A stretch of DNA of 64,000 bases from the NCBI RefSeq assembly GCF_000800805.1, contig NZ_CP010070.1:434001-498000 (forward strand). Direction: 5' to 3'. Source of the stretch: Candidatus Methanoplasma termitum. GTDB lineage: Archaea > Thermoplasmatota > Thermoplasmata > Methanomassiliicoccales > Methanomethylophilaceae. Below, one piece after another: positions 5,065-60,479 of this stretch. How positions within the stretch are numbered: position 1 is the stretch's first letter; the number at the start of each line of letters is the position of its first letter. Under the pieces are notes generated by a model. The model saw nothing but the letters and a program-made list of their open reading frames with translations, was not told where the DNA came from and made no database searches. The position numbers and the translations under genes are program-made.

Positions 5065-5523
5065 TCAGACATACAGACGCACAGTATATTTGCCATCAGC
5101 GTAAGTGGTTATTGTTTTACTATCCTGTACCTGACTGCTCCCCTTTAGAGTAACGCTTACGCTCATACTCTTACCTGTTGTTGATGAGGTGTATTTGTAA
5201 TCATTAACGTTATGGAATGTGGAGCCAGGTGTAATATTGTTGTAGGTCATGTAAAATTTCCCATCGATATATACATCAGCGCTGACGGTCATTGAACGTG
5301 TGGAAGTTATTTCTATCTGAATGAGGGCGGGATGCTCTGCGTTATATTCTAGATCGTATAGTTCTTTGAGCTTATCGAGTTGAGAAGGATCTATTGCATG
5401 AGGGTCGAAAGTACTCACGGTGTGATGAGCAGTCGCTTTGCCGAACATAGCAATGCATGTTGCCGCAATCACGATGACTGTTAATACCCACCGATATGAT
5501 TTTTTTGGAGATTCTTCTGCCAT
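5065..5523 (-). CDS. small membrane-anchored secreted protein, unknown function
   Basis: Not recognised. Starting at the ATG at 5523 it is 152 residues: a short basic N-terminus (MAEESPKKSYR), one hydrophobic helix, then a Ser/Thr-rich beta-like ectodomain of about 110 residues. An in-frame ATG at 5553 would add ten residues encoded across a run of ten C. However TATAAATT (coding strand) at 5550-5543 lies about 24 bases before the 5523 ATG, so a leaderless start at 5523 is more likely and the C tract would then sit between TATA box and start. Extracellular or pilin-like role is possible; no prepilin motif is convincing. Confidence 0.55.
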   Translation of the reverse strand: MAEESPKKSYRWVLTVIVIAATCIAMFGKATAHHTVSTFDPHAIDPSQLDKLKELYDLEYNAEHPALIQIEITSTRSMTVSADVYIDGKFYMTYNNITPGSTFHNVNDYKYTSSTTGKSMSVSVTLKGSSQVQDSKTITTYADGKYTVRLYV

Positions 5524-5551
5524 AATCCTATAGGGGGGGGGGAATTTATAC
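5523..5551 (-). promoter_or_regulatory. core promoter containing a C10 tract
   Basis: On the coding strand TATAAATT (5550-5543) is followed at once by ten C (5542-5533) and then TATAGGATT before the ATG at 5523. The TATA-to-start distance is about 24 bases, the archaeal optimum for a leaderless transcript. Slippage in the C tract would change that spacing. Confidence 0.5.
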
Positions 5552-8244: not shown

Positions 8245-10561
8245 TCAGCGCGGTTCTATCGTCACGTCGCCGGTGATCTCTTCTTTGGGTATTACGAAGC
8301 TGCCGTCGGCGTTGGGGAGTATCGTCTTCCAGACAACATCCTCTTTGTCGCCGATGCGGTAGACGATCGTTCCGGAGTATCCTTCGACCTTGAAGCGGTA
8401 CTCGCTCTTCCTGTGCACCCTGTCAGCACCTGCGATGTTCAATGATTCGTTCTTGAGAACGTCATAGTATCTTCTGTAGAACAGAAAGAACCATAGCAGG
8501 ATGCCTGCGATTATGAGCAGGACGACGATACCGAGTACATACCACCCGATGCCGCTGTCGCTGGCGGCTGTGCCGCCGGAACCGATCTCGAAGTAGAGGG
8601 TTAGGTGCGTGTTGCCTGTGACGCTGTCGAAATGGAGGTTCGGCTCGGCCGTGACCTCATCGGGATGAGCCTCTGTGCTGACCTTCCACGTGCTGAAGGT
8701 GTAACCGTCTTCGGGCACCGGCACCACGAACAGTTCCGTGCCGTAGGCGAGGATGACCGGCGAGGTGTAATCCAGGAAGGACAGACCGTCCGTGCTGTAT
8801 TTCGCATATCCTTTCCCTTCCGTTATGTCTATCGTCAGAGTGACCGATGCAGCGACCGAACTCTTAACGTCGATGATGTGGTTCATCATCACATTCGTGA
8901 AGGTATAGCTTCCAGAATCGATCTGCTCCTGCGTCAAGAGTCTGCCGTCCACCGTTACCGACGATACTACATATCCGTCGGCTGCGGAGAAGTGGAACGT
9001 TTGGTCATTGAACCTCTGCACGGTTACAACTCCGCTCGGCGTTATCGTCGAGTTGCTGTCGGAGCTTGCGTTTATGTAATTGTTCTTTACGCCGGGAGCG
9101 ATGGGATCGAGACCTTTGTACTTTACGACCATCCCATCAAAATAACCGTGCCCCTCAACGCCTTCCCAGTTGCCGGTGCCGAAGGAATCCTCATACGAAT
9201 ACCCTGCCGCGACTAATCCTCCGTCCGAGATTACCGTGACAGCATAGAAGTACTCATAGCTCCCCCCGCCGAAGTTCGTCAGCCATTCCACCGTGCCGCT
9301 GCCGTCACACTTTATGATGGTCGCATCATAATCGCCGTACCCTGTAACGTCTACCCAGTCGCCGGTGCCGAAGCTATCCTCGCTTGAATACCCTACCACA
9401 ATGAATCCTCCGTCCGAGGTAGCAGCGATACTATTGAAGCCTTCGTCGCCCACCCCGCCGAAGTTCTTTGCCCATTCCAAAGCACCATTTTTGTCATATT
9501 TTACGGCGATCGAATCATATGAACCGTATCCAGGAACGCCGTCCCAGCTGCCGGTGCCGAAGGAACCCTCATAGGAAAGCCCTGCCGCAATGAATCCTCC
9601 GTCCGAGGTAGCTGCTACACTGCGGAATCTATCATAGTCCGCCCCGCCGAAGTTCTTTGCCCATTTCACCGTACCGCTGCCGTCAAACCTAACGACTATC
9701 GCATCACCATTACCATACCCCGCAACGCCATCCCACGCTGCCGGTGCCGAAGCTATCCTCGCTTGAATACCCTGCCGCAATGAATCCTCCGTCCGAGGTA
9801 GCTGCGACACAACTGAAGTCATCATCGCCCTCCCCGCCGAAGTTCTTTGCCCATTTCACCGTACCGTTGCTGTCGTACTTTACGGCGATCGCATCACTAT
9901 AACCATACCCCGCAACGCCATCCCAGCTGCCGATGCCGAAAGAATCCACATAAGAATACCCTATCGCAACGAATCCTCCGTCCGAGGTAGCTGCGACACC
10001 GTAGAATACATCATCGCCCTCCCCGCCGAAGTTCCTTATCCATTTAACCATACCGTTGCTGTCGTACTTTACGGCGATCGCATCATATGAACCGTACCCC
10101 TCAACGTCTTCCAAACTGCCGGTGCCGAAAGAATCCACATAAGAATACCCTACCGCGATGACTCCCCCGTCTGAGGTAGCTGTGACACTGTAGAAAATAT
10201 CATTGCCCTCCCCGCCGAATGTCCTCACCCATTTAACCATACCGTTGCTGTCGTACTTTACGGCGAGAGCATCTACCCCGCCGTACCCAGCAATGCCTCC
10301 CAAGTCGCCGGTGCCGAAGGAATACTCCTGAGCATACCCTACCGCAACGAATCCTCCGTCCGAGGTAGCTGCGACACCTTTGAACGTATCGCTGTCCGCC
10401 CCGCCGAAGTTGCTCTTGCTTAAGACAACAGTCCCTCCGCCGGATGCCCCGGCCGCGGAACTCTCCGTAACTTGTACGGCGGCGATCACTGTCATAAGCA
10501 GCGCCGCTGCCAAAAGCACGGCAACCACGCTTCTTTTTTTATCTAAACCAATAATGGTCAT
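8245..10561 (-). pseudogene. surface seven-bladed beta-propeller protein, split by a one-base frameshift
   Basis: The start is the ATG at 10561 (MTIIGLDKKRS), preceded by GGGGGGAG and followed by a good signal peptide. Blades of about 62 residues (FGG..D.F..VAATSDGGFIAVGYS...GYG..DAIAVKYDSNGTVKW) follow. Frame one runs to a stop at 9710; a second frame from about 9740 carries on to 8245. Sister blades read TCCCAGCTGCC where this has TCCCACGCTGCC, an extra C at 9736. Removing it joins the frames into about 771 residues with exactly seven blades. Downstream are a TITPSG-type beta module, another beta domain, a transmembrane helix ending WFFLFYRRYYDV near residue 685, and a charged tail of about 70 residues, both shared with the protein at 36308. 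It could be a true off-phase gene or an assembly error. Confidence 0.7.
9114..10410 (-). repeat. seven propeller blades of the frameshifted surface gene
   Basis: Seven tandem copies of a roughly 186-base unit coding FGG(E/A)..D.F.SVAATSDGGFIAVGYS..DSFGTG. The one-base insertion at 9736 is inside the fourth copy. The three copies before and three after are in consistent frames. Confidence 0.75.
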
Positions 10562-17557: not shown

Positions 17558-17902
17558 CACGACTATGACGGCTCTGGTGAAACCCTGCTGAACAATAGTT
17601 CGTATGTGAATATTTCCACATGACCTCGGTTCGAGTCCGAAGCATCAAGGTCTGATTACTTTTGTTAATTTGCATGATGCAATAATGGATTTCATTAGAG
17701 TTTCTCCCTTTTCGGCTTTGCCAATGACAAATACAATTATTCTACTTGTTTAGAAACAACTGCAAGCAACATGGATTTTAATAGTATATATAACAGACTG
17801 GTATTCTATACTATTATTGTAGATTGACCATTTTTATATAGTTTTCAAACTAACGTTATTGCCATAATGGGGGGCTGATAAAAAAGTCAATGAGGGAATA
17901 AG
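17558..17902 (+). promoter_or_regulatory. intergenic region with promoter of the giant surface gene
   Basis: Holds, in order: GGTTCGAGTCC at about 17631-17641, which looks like a tRNA T-loop without the rest of a tRNA; the palindrome TTGCATGATGCAA (17670-17682); two TATA boxes (AGTATATATAAC about 17785-17797 and TTTTTATATAG about 17831-17841); a leader motif CCATAATGGGGGGCTGAT (17862-17879); and a GAGGG Shine-Dalgarno 6-10 bases before ATG 17903. The second TATA box puts the transcript start close to the leader motif. Confidence 0.5.
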
Positions 17903-20900
17903 ATGAAAGGATTGAACAAGCTGTTGCCAATCTTGGCAATATCGATAATGTTGCTTGCTTCAGTACCGGTCGCACTTTTTGCCGGTAACTCGAACGCAGC
18001 AGCGGGGGGGGGGGAAGAGGAACATTGGGGACTGCCGTCAACTAATTATTTAGGCAGCCAGGCCCAAACATACAGTGATCAATCAGAATTTTCCGAACTA
18101 TACAAAAAGAACTTCGGCGGGGCCGGCACAGATGCATATTATTCGGTCGCCGGCACACCCGACGGCATAGTGGCCGTGGGGTATTCGGCCGCATTCGGAA
18201 GCGGTGACTGGAGCGGCACCGCCGGGAAAGGCGGCGTTGACGCAATAATTGTAAAACATGATAACTTCGGGAATGTGATATGGAAGAAGAACTTCGGCGG
18301 GGCCGGAGGCGATTATTTCCAATCGGTGGCGGTCGTTCAGGACGGGTTCGTTGCCGTGGGGTATTCGGACGAAACATCCTTCGGTAACGGGGATTGGATG
18401 GGGGTAGGGGGAAAAGGCGGTGCCGACGCGATCATCGTAAAATTCGACAACAACGGGAATGTGATATGGAAGAAGAACTTCGGAGGGAACAGCACAGATC
18501 AATATCTTTCGGTCGCTGCGGTATCCGGCGGGATAATCGCCGCTGGATACTCGAGCATATTCGGAAGCGGAGATTGGACAGGGGTCGCAAGCAAAGGCAG
18601 CAATGACGCGATCGCGGTAAAATATGACGATATCGGGAACGTGGTATGGAAGAAGAACCCCGGCGGGAACGGCGACGATCGATACAACTCCGTCGCAGCA
18701 ACATCGGACGGGTTCATCGCTGTTGGATACTCATCCGCATTCGGCAACGGGGATTGGATCGGAATGGCAAGCAAAGGCACCTATGATGCGATCATCGTGA
18801 AGTGCGACAACCTTGGTAACATAGTTTGGAAGAAGAGTTTCGGAGGGACAGGTGTGGATTATTTCTATTCCGTCGCAGCAACATCAGACGGATTCGTTGC
18901 GGCAGGGATCTCCGCCGCCTTCGGGAACGGCGATTGGACAGGCTGTGAAGGAAAAGGCGGTTATTATGATGCTATTGTCGTGAAATATGACAACTTTGGG
19001 AATACGGTGTGGAAGAACAACTTCGGGGGGACGGGAACAGATTATTTCCAAGCAGTTACCGCCGTCCAGGACGGGATCATCGCCGCGGGGTATTCGAACG
19101 TTTTCGGCGACGGCGATTGGATCGGCTTTGAAGGAAAAGGCGGTATTGATGCAACGGTCGTGAAGTATGACAATTCCGGAATCATAGTATGGAATAAGAA
19201 CATCGGGGGTTCCGGCACAGACATATGTTATTCGGTCGCCGCGGTGTCGGACGGAGTAGTCGCCGCAGGGTATTCTCAGACATTCGGCAACGGGGATTGG
19301 ACAGGCGTCGAGGGGAAGGGCAGTATTGATGCGTTCCTTGTGAAGTACGGTACGGCTCCGGACGTCATCCCCGTAACGGACATAATCGGTGCGCCCTCGG
19401 CCGCGACCGCAGAGGTGCCGCTAATACTAACGGGAACGGTCATCCCCTCGAACGCTACCGGCCAAGCAATAACATGGACGGTGAAGAACGCAGGGACCAC
19501 GGGCGCCGCAGTTGCCGGCAATAACATCCTCCTGACCACCGGTGCCGGCACCGTCGTCGTGACGGCGACGGTCGAGAACGGTCTGTCGCTTGGCACGAAT
19601 TTCACAAAAGATTTCACGATCGCGGTAACGGCGGTGGCCGGAGAAGGCATCACCTATGATGAATTGTACAAAAAGAACTTCGGAGGGTCCGGAGGGGACT
19701 ATTATCAGTCGGCAGCCGTTGTTACCGACGGGGTCATTGCAGTCGGGTATTCGGATGCGACATCCTTCGGTAACGGGGACTGGAGCGGCACCGTCGGTAA
19801 AGGCGGCGTAGATGCGATAATCGTAAAACATGACAACTTTGGGAATATAACATGGAAGAAGAACTTCGGAGGGTCCGGAGGCGACTATTTCAATTCCGTC
19901 GCTGCGGTATCCGACGGGTTCATCGCGGTTGGGTATTCTAACCCAGAATCATTCGGCAACGGCGACTGGACCGGTGTCACGGGGAACGGTGCCGCCGAGG
20001 CGATCATTGTTAAGTACGATAACGATGGGAACGTATTATGGAAAAAGAACTTCGGCGGGAACGGCACAGATCAGTACAATTCGGTTGCTGCGGTTCCGGA
20101 TGGGTTTGTCGCAGTTGGGCATTCTATGGGTTCCGGTAACGGGGACTGGGTAGGTATGACGGGGAAAGGAGGCGACGACGCGATAGTCGTGAAGTACGAC
20201 AACCTTGGGAACGTAATTTGGAAGAAGAACTTCGGAGGGTCGGGCACAGATTATTTTAATTCGGTCGCCGCTACATCTGACGGGTTCGCAGTAGCAGGAT
20301 ACTCGACAGCATTCGGTAGCGGAGATTGGGTCGGCATCACAGGAAAAGGCAGCTACGATGCGATCATAGTGAAGTACGACAGCAACGGGAACGTGCTGTG
20401 GAAGAATGCCCTCGGAGGATCCGGCGCAGATCAGTACAATTCGGTCGCCGCTGTACCGGATGGGTTCGTCGCTGTAGGGTATTCGGAAGCGGCGACCTTC
20501 GGCAGCGGAGACTGGATCGGCGTTCTATGTAAGGGAAGCACTGATGCGGTCATAGTGGAGTATGACAGCTTGGGGAACCCGGCATGGAAGAAGAACTTCG
20601 GAGGGTCGGGAGTCGATTACTTTTATTCGGTGGCCGCCGTCTCGGACGGGGTCGTCGCCGTTGGGTTCTCGAACGTTTTCGGCGACGCCGATCTGACCGG
20701 CATGACGGGCAAAGGTGCCTATGATGCAACGGTCGTTAAGTATGACGACCAGGGGAACATAACATGGAAGGACAGCCTCGGAGGATCCGGCCTGGATCGG
20801 TATAATTCTGTCGCTGCAGTGTCGGACGGGATCGTCGCCGCAGGTTATTCTCAAACATTCGGCAACGGGGATTGGACAGGTGTCGCAGGTAAAGGCAACA

Positions 20901-23900
20901 TCGACGCGATCCTTGTGAAATACAACATGATCATCGCCGAAACCAATAATGTCACCTCCATCGAGGTCACAGTTCCGGCAAGGACACAATACTTCATCGG
21001 AGAAACATTCGACCTCACAGGAATGGCCTTAACAGCGTTTTACAGCAATGGAACGAGTGCCGATGTGACCGACTATACAACATCCCCAGAGAACGGATCG
21101 ATATTCAGCACCGCCGGTACACGGACCGTTACCGTCACTTACACCGAGAACGGAATAACACAGACAACATCCTTTGATGTTACCATAGTACTTTGCGGAG
21201 ATGTCAACGGGGACGGGAATGTCGACACATTCGATCTGGGGATTTTGACAAGCTTTGTCGCAGGATTGCCAGGTTACACAGTAGATGAAAAAGCGGCAGA
21301 CGTCAACGCAGACGGAACGATCGACCAATTAGATGAATTGATATTGACACGTTTTATCGCAGGATGGCCGGGCTATTCGCTCCCTTACATGCTGCCTGTG
21401 ACCTTCAGCATAACATCGGTCTCCGACGCAGGTTCGACGATATCTCCGTCGGGAAGGACGGAGGTCGTTTACGGTGCAAACCGGACCTTTACATTCTCGG
21501 CAAACGAAGGATATCGGGTGTTTTCAATTACTGTGGATGATGTGCCGTTATCTCAGGCGATGATCGACCTCGGGACATACACCTTCGCCAATGTGGTGGG
21601 GGATCACACGATATCGGTTGTTACAACTGCGTATTACACTCACACTCTCACCTTCAATGCCAACGGCGGAGACGGGGTTCCGGCAATGATGATGCTGACG
21701 GACACCTCGACCGCATCTAACATGACGATACCTTCGACAGTGCCGACAAGAGCAGATCATATATTCTTGGGATGGACCACCGCTTTCAACGGGACCGGTA
21801 CCGTCTATCAGCCCGGAGAAACCGTCTCGGTCGGCGCCGCGGAGATCATTCTGTATGCAAAGTGGGCTATAATCACATACAGCCATACCATTAACTTCAA
21901 CGCAAACGGCGGTAACGGGGCTCCGGCATCTATGATATTGACGGACGCCTCGGCCGTTTCGAATTTGACGATACCTTTGACCGTGCCGGCAAGATCAGGT
22001 TATGCATTCTCCGGCTGGGCAACCGCTTCCAACGGAACAGGCACGATCTATCAGCCGGATGACAGGATATCGGTCGGCACCGCGGCGATCACTTTGTACG
22101 CAAAGTGGACCATTATTACTTATACCCACACACTTAACTTCAACGCAAACGGCGGTAACGGGGCTCCGGCCTCTATTGTATCGACGGACACCTCGGCCGT
22201 TTCGAATTTGACGATACCTTTGACAATGCCGATACGGACCGATTATGCGTTCTTAGGCTGGACAGTTACCGCAGACGGGACCGGCACGATATATCAGCCG
22301 GGCAGCGTGATAGCTGTGGGATCCGATGGTGTGACGCTGTACGCTTTCTGGGCGGCAACACCCCCCTATGTAAATAACACCTACAATGGGCCGACATTAA
22401 CGGGATCGAAGATATTCCCCAATCCGGACCGTATGAATGTATGGGGGGAATACATACAACAGGACACGTGGGTACTCACAACGGGACAGAAGCTCGACGG
22501 CTACATGAGTTACTATAATGTGGCCTCACACACCGCATACGGTACCCTTCCGCCGGGAGTGCGTGATGACCAGGGCCTCCCGGGTTATCAGGGGGTTCTG
22601 AACTTCACAGGTATACCCACGGCACCCGGGACGTATTTCCGTGAGTACGACATTCTGTTCACTGATGCAGCCAAAACGCCAGGATGTTACAATGTGCAGA
22701 TCACTTTCATTGTGCTGGACGGCAGTATAACGCATCCCCTGTACTTCAACGCCAACGGAGGAGAGGGGGTGCCGCCGACACAGATAATCAAAGATCTGAC
22801 GAAAACAACTGCGATGATCATACCTGATATTATACCGACCAGGACAGGCTACGGTTTCGCGGGGTGGACGACGATCGCGGCCGGGACGGGCACGATCTAT
22901 CAACCGGGCACCAGCATTAATGTCGGGACCGCACCTATCACACTGTACGCAAAATGGATGACATACACCCACACCCTAAACTACAACGCCAACGGCGGAA
23001 CGGGAGCGCCTGCTTCACAGATCATAACGGATACAACGGCGACAACATCACTGACCGTGCCGCTGACGATACCGTCAAGGACTAGTTATATGTTCCTCGG
23101 ATGGGCAACGACCGCCGCGGGCACGGGCACGGTCTATCAGCCCGGTGACGCAATACCCATCGGGACCGTGGCCGTCACGCTCTATGCAAAATGGTCGGCG
23201 GCTTATACCCATACGCTCATCTACGACGACAACGGCGGAACGGGAGCGCCTGCTTCACAGATCGTAACAGATATAACATCAACGTCATCGGTCGCAATAT
23301 CCGGCACAGTGCCGGCAAGGACCGGTTATGTATTCTCCGGATGGGCCACGACCGCCGCGGGATCGGGCACGAAATATATACCCGGAGATATGATATCCGT
23401 GGGAACGACAGCGGTCACTTTGTACGCATATTGGTCGGCTGCCGCGACCAGTTACACCCACACCCTCAGCTTCAACGCCATGGGTGGTACGGGAGCGCCT
23501 TCAGCGCAGACGGTAACGGACACCTATCAAACATCCAATGTCATGATACCGTCGGCCGTGCCGACAAGATCGGGTTACGCACTCTCCGGCTGGAACACGA
23601 ATTCCGCCGGAACAGGAACGAATTACCTTCCCGGTGCCTCGGTCAAGGTGGGGACATCTGCGGTCATACTATATGCCGTATGGGGAACGGCATACACCCA
23701 CACGCTTAACTTCAACGCCAACGGAGGAACGGGAGCGCCCGCTTCACAGATAATAACGGATGCGAACGTGACCTTGCCGATCACCATACCGTCCTCACTG
23801 CCCGCAAGAGCCGGTTATATATTCGCCGGCTGGAATACCAACTCCGCCGGAACTGGGACGAATTACCTTCCCGGAGACTCGGTCAGTGTGGTTAACGTTG

Positions 23901-26900
23901 CGGTAACACTGTACGCAAAGTGGACCTGGATCTATACACACACCCTCAGCTTCAACGCCAACGGAGGAACGGGTGCCCCGGCCGCACAGACGGCGCAGGA
24001 CATCAACGCAACCGCCGGGATACAGATACCTTTCGTAGCACCCGCAAGGGCAGGTTATATATTCGCCGGCTGGAACACCGCCGCGGACGGGAACGGCGCG
24101 ACCACCTATCAACCGGGCACCTTCGTATCCGTCGGAGCGGCAGCCGTCACGCTGTACGCTAAGTGGACAATGCCCGCTTATACACATACGATCAATTACA
24201 ACATCAACGGCGGGACGGGAGGACCCGCGGCGCAATCAGTAACGACAAAGAACACATCTGAGGTTATGATAATATCCAACATAATTCCTGTCAAAGCGGG
24301 ATATTACTTCAACGGCTGGGTTGTCAGCAGCGGAATGGGCCTGACATACCAACCAGGAAGTTCGATCAACGTGGGGACCTCTCCCATTACATTGAACGCC
24401 TTATGGGAATATGAACACACCCTCAGCTTCAATGCCAACGGCGGGACCGGAGCCCCGGCATCGATGACGATAGTGAACGTGAGCTCGACGGGAACGCATA
24501 CAATACCTCTCACAGTTCCATCAAGAGTGGGTTACATTTTTGCCGGCTGGACCGATAATGCGGCCGGAACAGGTACGGTATATCTTCCGGGAGCATCGAT
24601 AACCATCGGAACTCCCGGGCTCACGCTGTACGCAAAGTGGTCAACCACTCCTACCAATTACACCCATACGCTCAGCTTCAACGCCAACGGCGGAACCGGT
24701 GTCCCACAGACAATGACGATAACGAACACGTCGATAGTGACCGCATTCACAATACCCTCTACCGTTCCTACGAGAGACGGCTACAAATTCTATTGCTGGA
24801 ACAGCGAGGCAACAGGCTGGGGCACGGACTGCCAGCCCGGCGGCTCGATCAATGTCAGCACCGCTGCGCCGGTCACGCTGTACGCTCAGTGGAGTTATAT
24901 CCCCACAGTCACCCACACGCTTGAATTCGTCGCCAACGGCGGAACGGGCGCTCCTACGACGCAGACGTTGCAGGATAAAGCGGCATCATCGTTAATGGTG
25001 ATACCCAAAATAATACCGACAAAAACAGGCTATGAGTTCTTCGGTTGGACCACCACGCCCAACGGTAGTATATACTACCAACCGGGCGACTCGATCTTAG
25101 TAGGAACTGCGACGGTCACAATGTACGCAAAATGGAACATAAGCGTCCTAGCAATGGATATTTATGGGGTACCAGACTCAATGATAGTAGGCACACCCTT
25201 GATTCTAAACGGAACGGTGGTCCCTTCTACCGCAACGTACAAAACCATAACGTGGTCTGTGAAGAGTGCAGGAACAACTGGAGTCGAGATCAGTGGAAAT
25301 ACTCTCACGGCAACTGGAAGTGGAAAGGCAGTTGTAACAGCAACAATAGCAAACGTTCAAGGTAATATTTTCATGAAAGACTTTACAATAGAGGCATTCA
25401 CTCCAGTGGCTGGGGAATTTGATGGATTAATCAGAAAGAACTCCGACGCGTCCGGCGAAAATAATTATAATTCGGTTGCAGCAGTAGGTGACGGAGTAAT
25501 CGCTGTAGGTTCCTCCTCCTCGTTTGGCACCGGCATATGGGTGGGTGTTTCGGGTAAAGGCGGCACTGACGCAACGATAGTGAAGTATGACAAAGATGGC
25601 AATGTGATATGGAAGAATAATTTCGGCGGTTCGGGCGACGACAGTTTCAATGAAGTCATCGTAATGTCTGACGGCAGCATCATTGCTGTTGGTTATTCCA
25701 ACAAATTCGACAAAGACCTGTCCGGCATCACCGGAAAAGGCGGTAATGATGCGATCGTCGTAAAGTTTGATGGGAACGGTGTATGGAAGTGGACGAAGAA
25801 CTTCGGCGGGACAGGTGACGATTATTTCGATTCGGTAACTGCGACTTCCGACGGAGGCTTAATCGCTGTAGGGTGTTCGTTCATCACGAAAGCCTTTATG
25901 GCGGACACCAATTATGCGATCATTGTAAAGTACGGATACGGCGGCAACTCCGAATGGGACGACAAATATGAGGGTAAAGGCGGCGATGATAAGTATCAAT
26001 CAATCACTGACGTATCCGACGGTGTCATTGTGGCAGGATATACGGGGGCCTACAAACAAAGGCCCGGTGCGTTCACTTCTGTATACAAAGATGCGCTCGT
26101 TGTAAAGTACAGCTATGGCGGCGGTAAAGAATGGGAAAAGACATATGAGGGGTCCGTTGGAGATGCCGAATTCCATTCAGTAACGGCAATACAGGGTGGC
26201 TTAGGCTTCGTTGCCGTGGGATACACAGAGATTTCTAAACAAATCCCAGGCAATACTCTGAAGATAGTAAGAGATGCGCTCTTGGTCAGATACGATAGCA
26301 GCGGCAATATTAATTGGGAAAAGAGATATGGGGGGACTGCCGGCGACACAGAATTCCATTCTGTTGTGGCAATACCTGGTGCAGGCTTCGTTGTCGCAGG
26401 GCATACAGTGAGTTCCGAACAAAACCCCGTCGGTCTTCTAACAGTATGCAATTATGCGTTAATCGTCAGATATGATGATGTCGGCTATATCCTATGGGAG
26501 AAGAGACTGGAAGCGTCCGGCGGTAATAGGTATCTCTCGGTAGCGGAAGCGGACGGCAACTATTTCGCAGTGGGGTACACACAAGGCCATAGATTAACCC
26601 CTCCTGGTTTTACTGAATATTATAGAGATGCTGTGATTGTGAAGTATGGCATAATGGGAATTACAAACATAACCGAGGTTCCTTTAACGGCAATTGCAGG
26701 GATGGCGCTTACTTTGACAGGAACAATATCTCCAATTAATGCCACAAATAAGTCGATCACGTGGACGGTTGAGCCAATAGGAACTACTGCTACAGGAGCG
26801 ACGATAGGCGGCAATACGCTTTCAACAACAGGGGCAGGCATCGTAAAAGTGAAAGCGACAGTAGCGGATGGCACCAAAAAAGGTGTCAATTACACTCAGA

Positions 26901-27604
26901 CATTTACCATTGAAGTAAAAAATATACCTTCTGACTATAAAATTATAATACACTATCAAACGGTGGAGGATAATTTCAAATATAGCGATCTTACAGATTC
27001 TATGGTTGGGGTACTCGGTGGAAGTAATGTTGGAATCGACCTATCTCCGGCAGGTTGGTTTGTATTCGGGGCCTGGGTGGACGGAAAGGAACTGACCAAA
27101 GCAGAGATAAAAGAAGGATATTATTTGATTAAAAATGTTACAAAGAACTACAACGTGACTATAACCTACGCACCAAAAGGTGGGATAAGCGGTAAAGAGG
27201 ATCTCGGAGGCACTTTAACAAATTACTATTTCAAAGAATCAGATAGGATTGGGATTTTAATTTTGACAATTGAAATGGGAGTACCATATGGGAGTGTGGT
27301 CGGACTTCTCTTTGAAGGGATTAATGCGGATGACGCAGCGGGTGTCGCTATAGATATTGCTGATAAAATAATCGATAGCGAAAAAGTTCAAGATGCTATA
27401 AAGAAAGCAGGTTATGTAATACCTCTGATAGGGCAGATATGGTTCGTTGTTGACACGGTATTGACAGTTGAATGCTTGGCTATGGCGATTTGTATGTTTA
27501 CAGAGTTAAATGTTTTCCTTAATCACGATGCTTCAAAGGGGGTGATGTTGACAATCGATGACTGGGTGTTGGCGTTCAGGTATTACGGTGTACAATCACA
27601 ATAA
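17903..27604 (+). CDS. giant modular surface protein: three beta-propellers, dockerin, 13 InlB repeats
   Basis: 3233 residues. Signal peptide 1-33 (LLASVPVALFAGNSNA), then Gly/Glu linker over a G11 tract. Propeller one at 71-482 (seven blades); a BIG2-like Ig domain to about 580; propeller two at 593-1008 (seven blades); a Big_3-like Ig domain about 1016-1096; a dockerin type I pair at 1097-1162 (GDVNGDGNVDTFDL and ADVNADGTIDQLDE); a TISPSG module; thirteen InlB B-repeats about 1244-2411, split after the third by a putative Ig domain (1488-1606); BIG2-like domain; propeller three at 2513-2916; BIG2-like domain; a unique C-terminus (3010-3233) with two hydrophobic stretches. It lacks the WFFLFYRRYYD anchor. 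Likely an extracellular adhesin or matrix protein. Base composition becomes A-richer after about 25130. Confidence 0.85.
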   Translation: MKGLNKLLPILAISIMLLASVPVALFAGNSNAAAGGGEEEHWGLPSTNYLGSQAQTYSDQSEFSELYKKNFGGAGTDAYYSVAGTPDGIVAVGYSAAFGSGDWSGTAGKGGVDAIIVKHDNFGNVIWKKNFGGAGGDYFQSVAVVQDGFVAVGYSDETSFGNGDWMGVGGKGGADAIIVKFDNNGNVIWKKNFGGNSTDQYLSVAAVSGGIIAAGYSSIFGSGDWTGVASKGSNDAIAVKYDDIGNVVWKKNPGGNGDDRYNSVAATSDGFIAVGYSSAFGNGDWIGMASKGTYDAIIVKCDNLGNIVWKKSFGGTGVDYFYSVAATSDGFVAAGISAAFGNGDWTGCEGKGGYYDAIVVKYDNFGNTVWKNNFGGTGTDYFQAVTAVQDGIIAAGYSNVFGDGDWIGFEGKGGIDATVVKYDNSGIIVWNKNIGGSGTDICYSVAAVSDGVVAAGYSQTFGNGDWTGVEGKGSIDAFLVKYGTAPDVIPVTDIIGAPSAATAEVPLILTGTVIPSNATGQAITWTVKNAGTTGAAVAGNNILLTTGAGTVVVTATVENGLSLGTNFTKDFTIAVTAVAGEGITYDELYKKNFGGSGGDYYQSAAVVTDGVIAVGYSDATSFGNGDWSGTVGKGGVDAIIVKHDNFGNITWKKNFGGSGGDYFNSVAAVSDGFIAVGYSNPESFGNGDWTGVTGNGAAEAIIVKYDNDGNVLWKKNFGGNGTDQYNSVAAVPDGFVAVGHSMGSGNGDWVGMTGKGGDDAIVVKYDNLGNVIWKKNFGGSGTDYFNSVAATSDGFAVAGYSTAFGSGDWVGITGKGSYDAIIVKYDSNGNVLWKNALGGSGADQYNSVAAVPDGFVAVGYSEAATFGSGDWIGVLCKGSTDAVIVEYDSLGNPAWKKNFGGSGVDYFYSVAAVSDGVVAVGFSNVFGDADLTGMTGKGAYDATVVKYDDQGNITWKDSLGGSGLDRYNSVAAVSDGIVAAGYSQTFGNGDWTGVAGKGNIDAILVKYNMIIAETNNVTSIEVTVPARTQYFIGETFDLTGMALTAFYSNGTSADVTDYTTSPENGSIFSTAGTRTVTVTYTENGITQTTSFDVTIVLCGDVNGDGNVDTFDLGILTSFVAGLPGYTVDEKAADVNADGTIDQLDELILTRFIAGWPGYSLPYMLPVTFSITSVSDAGSTISPSGRTEVVYGANRTFTFSANEGYRVFSITVDDVPLSQAMIDLGTYTFANVVGDHTISVVTTAYYTHTLTFNANGGDGVPAMMMLTDTSTASNMTIPSTVPTRADHIFLGWTTAFNGTGTVYQPGETVSVGAAEIILYAKWAIITYSHTINFNANGGNGAPASMILTDASAVSNLTIPLTVPARSGYAFSGWATASNGTGTIYQPDDRISVGTAAITLYAKWTIITYTHTLNFNANGGNGAPASIVSTDTSAVSNLTIPLTMPIRTDYAFLGWTVTADGTGTIYQPGSVIAVGSDGVTLYAFWAATPPYVNNTYNGPTLTGSKIFPNPDRMNVWGEYIQQDTWVLTTGQKLDGYMSYYNVASHTAYGTLPPGVRDDQGLPGYQGVLNFTGIPTAPGTYFREYDILFTDAAKTPGCYNVQITFIVLDGSITHPLYFNANGGEGVPPTQIIKDLTKTTAMIIPDIIPTRTGYGFAGWTTIAAGTGTIYQPGTSINVGTAPITLYAKWMTYTHTLNYNANGGTGAPASQIITDTTATTSLTVPLTIPSRTSYMFLGWATTAAGTGTVYQPGDAIPIGTVAVTLYAKWSAAYTHTLIYDDNGGTGAPASQIVTDITSTSSVAISGTVPARTGYVFSGWATTAAGSGTKYIPGDMISVGTTAVTLYAYWSAAATSYTHTLSFNAMGGTGAPSAQTVTDTYQTSNVMIPSAVPTRSGYALSGWNTNSAGTGTNYLPGASVKVGTSAVILYAVWGTAYTHTLNFNANGGTGAPASQIITDANVTLPITIPSSLPARAGYIFAGWNTNSAGTGTNYLPGDSVSVVNVAVTLYAKWTWIYTHTLSFNANGGTGAPAAQTAQDINATAGIQIPFVAPARAGYIFAGWNTAADGNGATTYQPGTFVSVGAAAVTLYAKWTMPAYTHTINYNINGGTGGPAAQSVTTKNTSEVMIISNIIPVKAGYYFNGWVVSSGMGLTYQPGSSINVGTSPITLNALWEYEHTLSFNANGGTGAPASMTIVNVSSTGTHTIPLTVPSRVGYIFAGWTDNAAGTGTVYLPGASITIGTPGLTLYAKWSTTPTNYTHTLSFNANGGTGVPQTMTITNTSIVTAFTIPSTVPTRDGYKFYCWNSEATGWGTDCQPGGSINVSTAAPVTLYAQWSYIPTVTHTLEFVANGGTGAPTTQTLQDKAASSLMVIPKIIPTKTGYEFFGWTTTPNGSIYYQPGDSILVGTATVTMYAKWNISVLAMDIYGVPDSMIVGTPLILNGTVVPSTATYKTITWSVKSAGTTGVEISGNTLTATGSGKAVVTATIANVQGNIFMKDFTIEAFTPVAGEFDGLIRKNSDASGENNYNSVAAVGDGVIAVGSSSSFGTGIWVGVSGKGGTDATIVKYDKDGNVIWKNNFGGSGDDSFNEVIVMSDGSIIAVGYSNKFDKDLSGITGKGGNDAIVVKFDGNGVWKWTKNFGGTGDDYFDSVTATSDGGLIAVGCSFITKAFMADTNYAIIVKYGYGGNSEWDDKYEGKGGDDKYQSITDVSDGVIVAGYTGAYKQRPGAFTSVYKDALVVKYSYGGGKEWEKTYEGSVGDAEFHSVTAIQGGLGFVAVGYTEISKQIPGNTLKIVRDALLVRYDSSGNINWEKRYGGTAGDTEFHSVVAIPGAGFVVAGHTVSSEQNPVGLLTVCNYALIVRYDDVGYILWEKRLEASGGNRYLSVAEADGNYFAVGYTQGHRLTPPGFTEYYRDAVIVKYGIMGITNITEVPLTAIAGMALTLTGTISPINATNKSITWTVEPIGTTATGATIGGNTLSTTGAGIVKVKATVADGTKKGVNYTQTFTIEVKNIPSDYKIIIHYQTVEDNFKYSDLTDSMVGVLGGSNVGIDLSPAGWFVFGAWVDGKELTKAEIKEGYYLIKNVTKNYNVTITYAPKGGISGKEDLGGTLTNYYFKESDRIGILILTIEMGVPYGSVVGLLFEGINADDAAGVAIDIADKIIDSEKVQDAIKKAGYVIPLIGQIWFVVDTVLTVECLAMAICMFTELNVFLNHDASKGVMLTIDDWVLAFRYYGVQSQ
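18004..18014 (+). repeat. G11 homopolymer in the coding sequence just after the signal peptide
   Basis: Eleven consecutive G in codons 34-38 (GCG GGG GGG GGG GAA). Loss or gain of one base shifts the frame right after the signal peptide and would abolish the 3233-residue protein. Confidence 0.9.
18113..19350 (+). repeat. propeller block 1, seven blades
   Basis: Seven tandem units of about 58-62 codons with consensus FGG.GTD.F.SVAA..DG.IAVGYS..FGNGDW.G..GKG..DAIIVKYD..GNV.WKKN. Seven units equal one closed beta-propeller. Confidence 0.85.
19679..20926 (+). repeat. propeller block 2, seven blades
   Basis: Seven more copies of the same unit, very close to block 1 at DNA level, after a BIG2-like spacer domain. 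Confidence 0.85.
21190..21390 (+). other. dockerin-like segment within the giant protein
   Basis: Two calcium-loop repeats, GDVNGDGNVDTFDLGIL and ADVNADGTIDQLDELIL, spaced as in type I dockerins, each followed by a helix ending FVAGLPGY or FIAGWPGY. It is internal, not C-terminal. Confidence 0.7.
21632..25137 (+). repeat. thirteen InlB B-repeats (Listeria-Bacteroides repeat)
   Basis: Units of about 80 codons with consensus YTHTL.FNANGGTGAP...GY.FAGW.T...GTGT.YQPG..I.VGT..VTLYAKW. A 120-codon putative Ig domain (22364-22722) separates units three and four. Neighbouring units are near-identical in parts at DNA level. Confidence 0.85.
25439..26650 (+). repeat. propeller block 3, seven divergent blades
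   Basis: Seven units again, but units 3-7 differ from blocks 1 and 2 (YEG/YGG in place of FGG, longer loops, EWEK or NWEK strands). Block 3 was probably added from another source or diverged long ago. Confidence 0.75.
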
Positions 27605-59545: not shown

Positions 59546-60479
59546 TGCGCGGCGTGTTCCTAACATCTGTATCGAGATCTTCTTTTGCCATGAGCAATAC
59601 TCTGCTGTCCGGCCTTTCCCTTATTATCGACATACCTACGATATCTCCCAATTGAGATGAGAAATCTCTTATTTCTTCGAATGACGGCATTGATGTGAGC
59701 GAAAGCCTTTGTCTTGATGCACCGACAAAGACATACCCTTTCGGCTCGATGAGATCCGGATCGGCCCTGTTGTCAAGTTTCCCATACTCATCGACCCATC
59801 CGAAGTTCAGGTCCTTTACCAGAGTGTGTCTTATCACAGTGCGTGTATCAAGTGACGGAAGAAGGTCCAAGGTCTTCATGAGTCTGCCCCATCCGTCGTT
59901 TATTTTCGGGCGGCAGACCTTCTTGTATATCTCTTCGTTGGGAGCGGCGATCGTCACATACAGCTGCATCGGCAATTCGTCCAAAGATCCAAGCTGATCG
60001 GGGTATGTTCCGTTAGTCACGAGGAATGTGGTCATTTTTCTTCTGTGGCATTCCTTGATGAGATCCGACAGGTAAGGATAGGTTATCGGCTCGCCGGCTA
60101 AAGATATGGCAACCTGATTCGGATCGGATGCTTCTTCGAACATTTGCTTAGAGCATCTCGGATCGCCTTTGAACCCGGATATGAGGAGTCTGTGATGTGC
60201 GATAAGAGCGTCCAACATCTCTTTGGGCTCTGCCCAATCCCTGACCTCGAAGTCCCTCTCCTGGACCCTCCAGCAGAAACTGCAGCAATGGCTGCATTCG
60301 TTGATCGCCGGGGTCATCTGCAGGCAGCGATGGCTTTCTATGCCGTAGAAGTCCTGCTTATAGCAGTGTCTTCCGTGGATCATACTCTCTTTCATCCAAT
60401 GGCACAGTTTCACTGCCGCGTGATCTTTATATAAACGATACTGCTGTTTTATCAATAATTCACGATAGGATTCGTCCAT
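59520..60479 (-). CDS. taw1: tRNA 4-demethylwyosine synthase (Taw1/TYW1)
   Basis: A 319-residue radical SAM enzyme. Cys62, Cys66 and Cys69 (ECSHCCSFCW) bind the SAM cluster; Cys26, Cys39 and Cys52 are placed as in archaeal TYW1 for the second 4Fe-4S cluster. SLAGEPITYPYL and LVTNGTYPDQL follow. It builds the tricyclic imidazopurine from N1-methylguanosine-37 of tRNA-Phe using pyruvate. It is six bases after rfcL in the same operon. Confidence 0.95.
   Translation of the reverse strand: MDESYRELLIKQQYRLYKDHAAVKLCHWMKESMIHGRHCYKQDFYGIESHRCLQMTPAINECSHCCSFCWRVQERDFEVRDWAEPKEMLDALIAHHRLLISGFKGDPRCSKQMFEEASDPNQVAISLAGEPITYPYLSDLIKECHRRKMTTFLVTNGTYPDQLGSLDELPMQLYVTIAAPNEEIYKKVCRPKINDGWGRLMKTLDLLPSLDTRTVIRHTLVKDLNFGWVDEYGKLDNRADPDLIEPKGYVFVGASRQRLSLTSMPSFEEIRDFSSQLGDIVGMSIIRERPDSRVLLMAKEDLDTDVRNTPRIRSRNRKI

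Follow-up and report, generated by a model that had tools for sequence, protein, structure and literature searches.

The run of eleven G in codons 34 to 38 of a gene encoding a 3233-residue secreted repeat protein of the termite-gut methanogen Candidatus Methanoplasma termitum is very likely a simple-sequence contingency locus that undergoes phase variation by slipped-strand mispairing and belongs to a genome-wide set of such tracts. The gene lies in the window, the 64,000-nucleotide stretch of DNA that was analyzed (positions 434001–498000, G+C content of 48%), in a genome assembled as one contig of 1,488,669 bp (Ca. Methanoplasma termitum MpT1, 1.49 Mb and 49% G+C; PMC5011839). The genus is placed in the Methanomassiliicoccales, Thermoplasmatota. 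A sequence-only reading of the window had located the tract after a signal peptide and ahead of a giant protein body, and had proposed that a one-base slip would abolish the protein and that the tract was a likely on/off switch. That reading did not go far enough: the genome contains ten such tracts, this one included, and up to 97 are present per genome in the genus. The features of the tract-bearing gene are the following (window coordinates).

17892–17896, plus strand: GAGGG, a Shine-Dalgarno-like motif inferred from the sequence, 6 nt 5' of the ATG
17903–27604, plus strand: ORF for the 3233-residue secreted repeat protein, the tract-bearing gene
17903–18003, plus strand: signal-peptide segment adjoining the 5' side of the tract (translation read by eye)
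18004–18014, plus strand: G11 tract, codons 34–38, candidate slippage switch, ON at 8, 11, and 14 G
18095–19354, plus strand: predicted first seven-bladed β-propeller, FGG...GDW...DAIIVKYD repeats (AlphaFold, pLDDT of 93.9)
20978–21184, plus strand: Big_3 Ig-like domain, residues 1026–1094 (Pfam)
21197–21358, plus strand: type I dockerin, residues 1099–1152 (Pfam)
23699–23920, plus strand: best List_Bact_rpt repeat (PF09479), residues 1933–2006 (Pfam)

The window sequence and the translation of the ORF agree on the position of the tract. Exactly eleven G start at base 102 of the ORF, so that codons 35 to 37 fall wholly within the tract, together with one base each of codons 34 (the third) and 38 (the first), immediately after the signal-peptide-like start of the protein, MKGLNKLLPILAISIMLLASVPVALFAGNSNAAA. 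The length of the tract was varied in silico from 8 to 14 G. The full-length protein was encoded with G8, G11, and G14, and products of 46 to 50 residues with G9, G10, G12, and G13. Changes of one unit in tract length therefore switch the reading frame, as expected for a contingency locus, and the proposal that a one-base slip abolishes the protein was borne out in silico, since G10 and G12 both lead to a stop near residue 50. The window gene is in the ON state at the single length, G11, present in the one assembly.

The repeats located 3' of the tract are read as a seven-bladed β-propeller, the AlphaFold model comprising 28 strands arranged as seven four-stranded repeats. The closest PDB structure to this model is that of CylK, a propeller enzyme. 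Pfam detected 13 List_Bact_rpt repeats in the protein. The combination of a secretion signal, recognized by eye, with propeller, dockerin, Big_3, and List_Bact repeats is that expected for a surface adhesin. No clear C-terminal anchor was seen in the translation. The protein is read as a secreted repeat protein that is probably located at the surface. The window also contains a propeller paralogue (8245–10560, minus strand) with a signal peptide, a C-terminal transmembrane segment, and one frameshift near position 9715. There is no homopolymer tract at the break, and this paralogue is either a pseudogene or affected by a sequence error.

The tract might also encode a fixed poly-glycine linker connecting the signal peptide to the propeller, long by chance or for reasons related to the protein, and not engaged in switching. 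The frame is intact in the sole assembly, glycine-rich stretches often follow signal peptides, and a neighboring propeller gene of the window has ASGGGT at the same place without a long G run. However, glycine only requires GGN codons, and a linker leaves unexplained both the unbroken run of eleven G and the lack of any G8 in 1.49 Mb. Because tracts are additionally found 5' of start codons and as poly-C, where no glycine is encoded, and because sibling genes are out of frame at the tract (see below), we consider the linker very unlikely.

Runs of G or C were counted by pattern search on both strands of the whole genome, and the stretches around the tracts were read. There were 39 runs of exactly 7 bases, none of 8, one of 9, five of 10, four of 11, and none of 12 or more, for a total of ten tracts of 9 to 11 bases. 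Since a decaying distribution would not skip 8 and return at 10 to 11, this set is bimodal and not simply a tail. Under a fifth-order model computed from the window, 0.012 G-runs of at least 11 are expected in 64 kb, and the probability of at least nine runs of 10 or more bases is about 2e-7 even if a survival as high as 0.25 is allowed for each extra base. A/T runs of 5 to 10 bases decreased smoothly in number (330, 123, 36, 5, 0, and 1 in a 170-kb sample; the complete genome has eight A/T runs of 9 or more). The lack of a second peak for A/T indicates that the excess is specific to G/C. Thus, the bimodal run lengths indicate that the tract is longer than expected by chance, as are contingency loci.

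An OFF state was found in the same genome in the gene located at 399784–401022 (minus strand), in which MKNKKIYSIATVAILVAVGIWIF is encoded in one frame and a 413-codon body in another. A G10 tract (401012–401021) is located exactly at the junction of the two frames. Homologues of the body in four congeners (G058, G064, G068, and G066) have a transmembrane or signal segment fused in frame, without a tract, indicating that the split at G10 is a true frameshift leaving an undecayed body in the OFF state. The probability of 413 open codons by chance is about 3e-12. The intact bodies of OFF genes are, indirectly, in keeping with reversibility.

A second type of tract was detected in the window.

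5533–5542, minus strand: second tract of the window, C10 between a TATA-like box (5550–5543) and an ATG (5523)
5065–5523, minus strand: gene for a 152-residue protein with an N-terminal hydrophobic segment, 3' of this tract

The 152-residue protein had no Pfam match. Including this one, three C10 tracts of the genome separate a TATA-like box from an ATG located 27 to 30 bp away from the box, and the corresponding genes encode small proteins with hydrophobic segments. From their position in the sequence, these tracts appear to be of a promoter type. Three tandem genes for small membrane proteins were observed at L030:8100–9650 (genome positions of about 1322100–1323650), with C10 between the TATA-like box and the ATG in two of them and none in the middle gene. 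A Fic/HTH gene (L024:6192–7328, genome positions 23191–24327) has a C11 tract near its start, in frame. No clear switched gene could be assigned to the tracts at 60145, 920375, 1101014, and 1226911.

Among 147 genomes of the order, the number of runs of at least 9 was mostly 0 to 10 per genome. Three congeners had 97, 64, and 42 such runs; several other congeners had few tracts or none. The sampled G+C content was 0.49 for the congener with 97 tracts and 0.58 and 0.64 for the other two, which are therefore G+C-rich and have a raised base rate of G/C runs. The distribution was bimodal in sampled DNA of G058, with 1, 1, 0, 3, 7, 11, 6, and 1 runs for lengths of 7 to 14, respectively. Homologues of the window gene were searched for in the genus with the N-terminal 595 residues as the query. 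A propeller homologue of G056 has a G11 tract directly after the signal peptide, in frame with a 1097-residue body. The closest giant homologue, a protein of 3418 residues in G056, has no tract, and neither do the other propeller homologues of that genome. Thus, the switch is not conserved at the window gene: a tract is found again at this position within the propeller family, as judged from the sequences, and is not conserved gene by gene. The lack of a tract in the closest giant homologue also ruled out comparison of tract length between orthologues.

Tract-bearing genes of G067 were equally divided between five ON and five OFF genes, mostly consisting of a transmembrane segment, the tract, and List_Bact or LRR repeats. 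The ON genes were L097, L104, L111, and L121 (signal or transmembrane segment, tract, and repeat body) and L110 (type ISP restriction gene). The OFF genes were L098, L099, L109, and L112, with the same arrangement, and L106 (GT87 gene). Thus, ON and OFF states were both found among sibling genes and paralogues, the window gene being known in the ON state only.

The run lengths were likewise bimodal in Ca. M. glyptotermitis (G057), in which runs of 7 to 13 bases numbered 6, 1, 4, 19, 38, 37, and 5, respectively, in stretches that were chosen around tracts and in part overlap. About 33 LRR surface genes of this species have an MN(I/T/M)K-like start followed by G11 to G13 and then by the signal peptide, with LRR_5 repeats in the members that were scanned. 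Only 2 of the 26 typed copies were ON, the other 24 being OFF, and ON lengths are mostly 10 or 13 in a family in which lengths of 11 and 12 are the usual ones. The proportion of ON copies is lower than one third (P of 0.0025, an optimistic value as the copies are related), indicating that free-running switching between three frames does not fully describe the family. ON cells may be rare by design; alternatively, selection, assembly, or slippage at the RNA level may be involved. Four additional G057 loci, L047, L049, L058, and L163, encode a D12 methyltransferase, an HsdS-type specificity subunit, and two Peripla_BP_2 proteins, whose bodies are split from their apparent starts at poly-G tracts and out of frame with them. 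The methyltransferase and HsdS tracts possibly represent archaeal phase-variable methylation. Overall, the tract-bearing classes of the congeners include D12 methyltransferase, HsdS-type, type ISP, GT87, and periplasmic-binding genes; restriction-modification, glycosyltransferase, and binding-protein classes phase-vary in bacteria.

The OFF genes raise the possibility that RNA polymerase or ribosomes slip on poly-G, producing mixed frames and some protein from OFF templates without any requirement for variation in the DNA. Long open bodies are retained in many OFF genes, which continued expression would explain, and the strong excess of OFF copies in G057 (24 of 26) would be tolerable. However, paralogues with near-identical flanks differ in the length of the tract in the DNA, as do L144 (G11) and L145 (G13) of G057, whose flanks are 90% and 99% identical, and slippage at the RNA level would not work for tracts located 5' of the start codon. 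We therefore regard this explanation as improbable. Homopolymer errors in the sequencing or assembly of ordinary genes might likewise account for the tract lengths and OFF states, since length miscalls are a common class of error, most congener assemblies are fragmented, and some tracts are at contig ends. Such errors shift the length by about one base and cannot create tracts of G10 to G14 or an empty length-8 class, and separate assemblies of several species concur, making this origin hardly credible. The interpretation of the window tract as a likely on/off switch, as initially proposed, is supported by its position, the frame arithmetic, the bimodal set of tracts, the out-of-frame sibling gene, the G11 tract of the propeller homologue in a congener, and the mixed ON and OFF paralogues.

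In the mechanism that we propose, the G run would gain or lose single bases during replication by slipped-strand mispairing. Cells with 8, 11, or 14 G would make the 3233-residue surface protein; at other lengths, translation would end about 15 codons past the signal peptide. Display of the protein would thus vary between cells of the same population in a heritable and reversible way. Across the genome-wide set, tracts in coding regions would switch the frame, and those separating a TATA box from a near-leaderless start codon would alter the spacing between promoter and start. Slippage in vivo, its reversibility, surface display, and a benefit in the gut are the parts of this scheme that we infer. 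No match for MutS or NucS was found in 17 genomes of the genus, in which positive controls were detected. Slippage would therefore be poorly corrected. Almost all of the order lacks NucS, indicating that loss of repair is a permissive background and not the cause of the tracts. Accordingly, genus-specific loss of repair was rejected as the cause of the tract excess.

Poly-G/C contingency loci mediate slipped-strand phase variation in Campylobacter, Helicobacter, and Neisseria. The tracts of Methanoplasma resemble them in length (about 9 to 14), in location (5' part of the coding region or promoter), in the associated genes (surface proteins, glycosyltransferases, and methyltransferases or HsdS), in the mixture of ON and OFF states, and, for some of these bacterial species, in the presence of dozens of tracts per genome. 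They differ in that the hosts are archaea, with different replication and promoter machineries and no detected MutS or NucS, and in that switching is deduced here from sequence. In Neisseria, the opa genes form a multigene surface family, in which a repeat close to each signal peptide allows the gene to switch separately. The G057 family similarly comprises many paralogous surface genes with their own repeat near the signal peptide, but the repeat is a poly-G located 5' of the hydrophobic core, the bodies are made of LRR_5 repeats, and the typed copies are almost all OFF in the assembly. In bacterial surface genes, homopolymers or short repeats in the promoter alter its spacing and hence transcription. 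The poly-C tracts of Methanoplasma likewise lie inside a putative promoter. In contrast to the bacterial repeats, they adjoin an archaeal TATA-like box about 27 to 30 bp from the start codon, so that the start site itself would be predicted to move.

A survey of homopolymeric tracts in 99 prokaryote genomes, 18 of them archaeal, proposed that tracts located in 5' regions act as switches (PMC2831843). The 5' location is shared with Methanoplasma, but the tracts of that survey were mainly poly-A/T of 3 to 7 bases, poly-G/C being generally under-represented, in contrast to the long poly-G/C described here. A 2025 review of phase variation mentions archaea only as a possible future extension of phase-variable loci (PMC11868660). 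In the open-access literature, a scope outside which most subscription papers and preprints fall, no paper was found that joins phase variation with Methanomassiliicoccales or contains phrases for archaeal phase variation. The mechanism is known from bacteria; the domain and the scale appear to be new, without priority being established.

Phase variation through slippage of DNA is a characteristic feature of bacteria that live with hosts. If our interpretation is correct, gut archaea have evolved or acquired a bet-hedging device of the bacterial type, and the ways in which methanogens vary their surface, resist viruses, and contact hosts become directly testable. Single assemblies of such archaea would record arbitrary ON and OFF states, and some archaeal 'pseudogenes' may be switched-off genes. 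A broader proposal, for and against which we see the balance as even, is that of a phasome in the Methanoplasma of termite guts. Tens of poly-G switches would act independently on surface, restriction-modification, and glycosylation genes. One species or more would have some 33 LRR genes biased toward OFF, whose ON lengths (mostly 10 or 13) border the common range of 11 to 12, so that any one cell would show few of the proteins. In addition, a poly-C promoter switch would set the distance from TATA box to start.

Other tract arrangements were observed in congeners. Several tracts of G058 (L234, L239, L245, L247, and L253) come after a common start similar to ATGACAGCA and may mark a further family of tract-bearing genes. 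In G056 (L126:7003), a G9 tract lies two bases 5' of an ATG, at the position expected for a Shine-Dalgarno sequence, and the gene located 3' of it resembles, by eye, an O6-alkylguanine methyltransferase gene.
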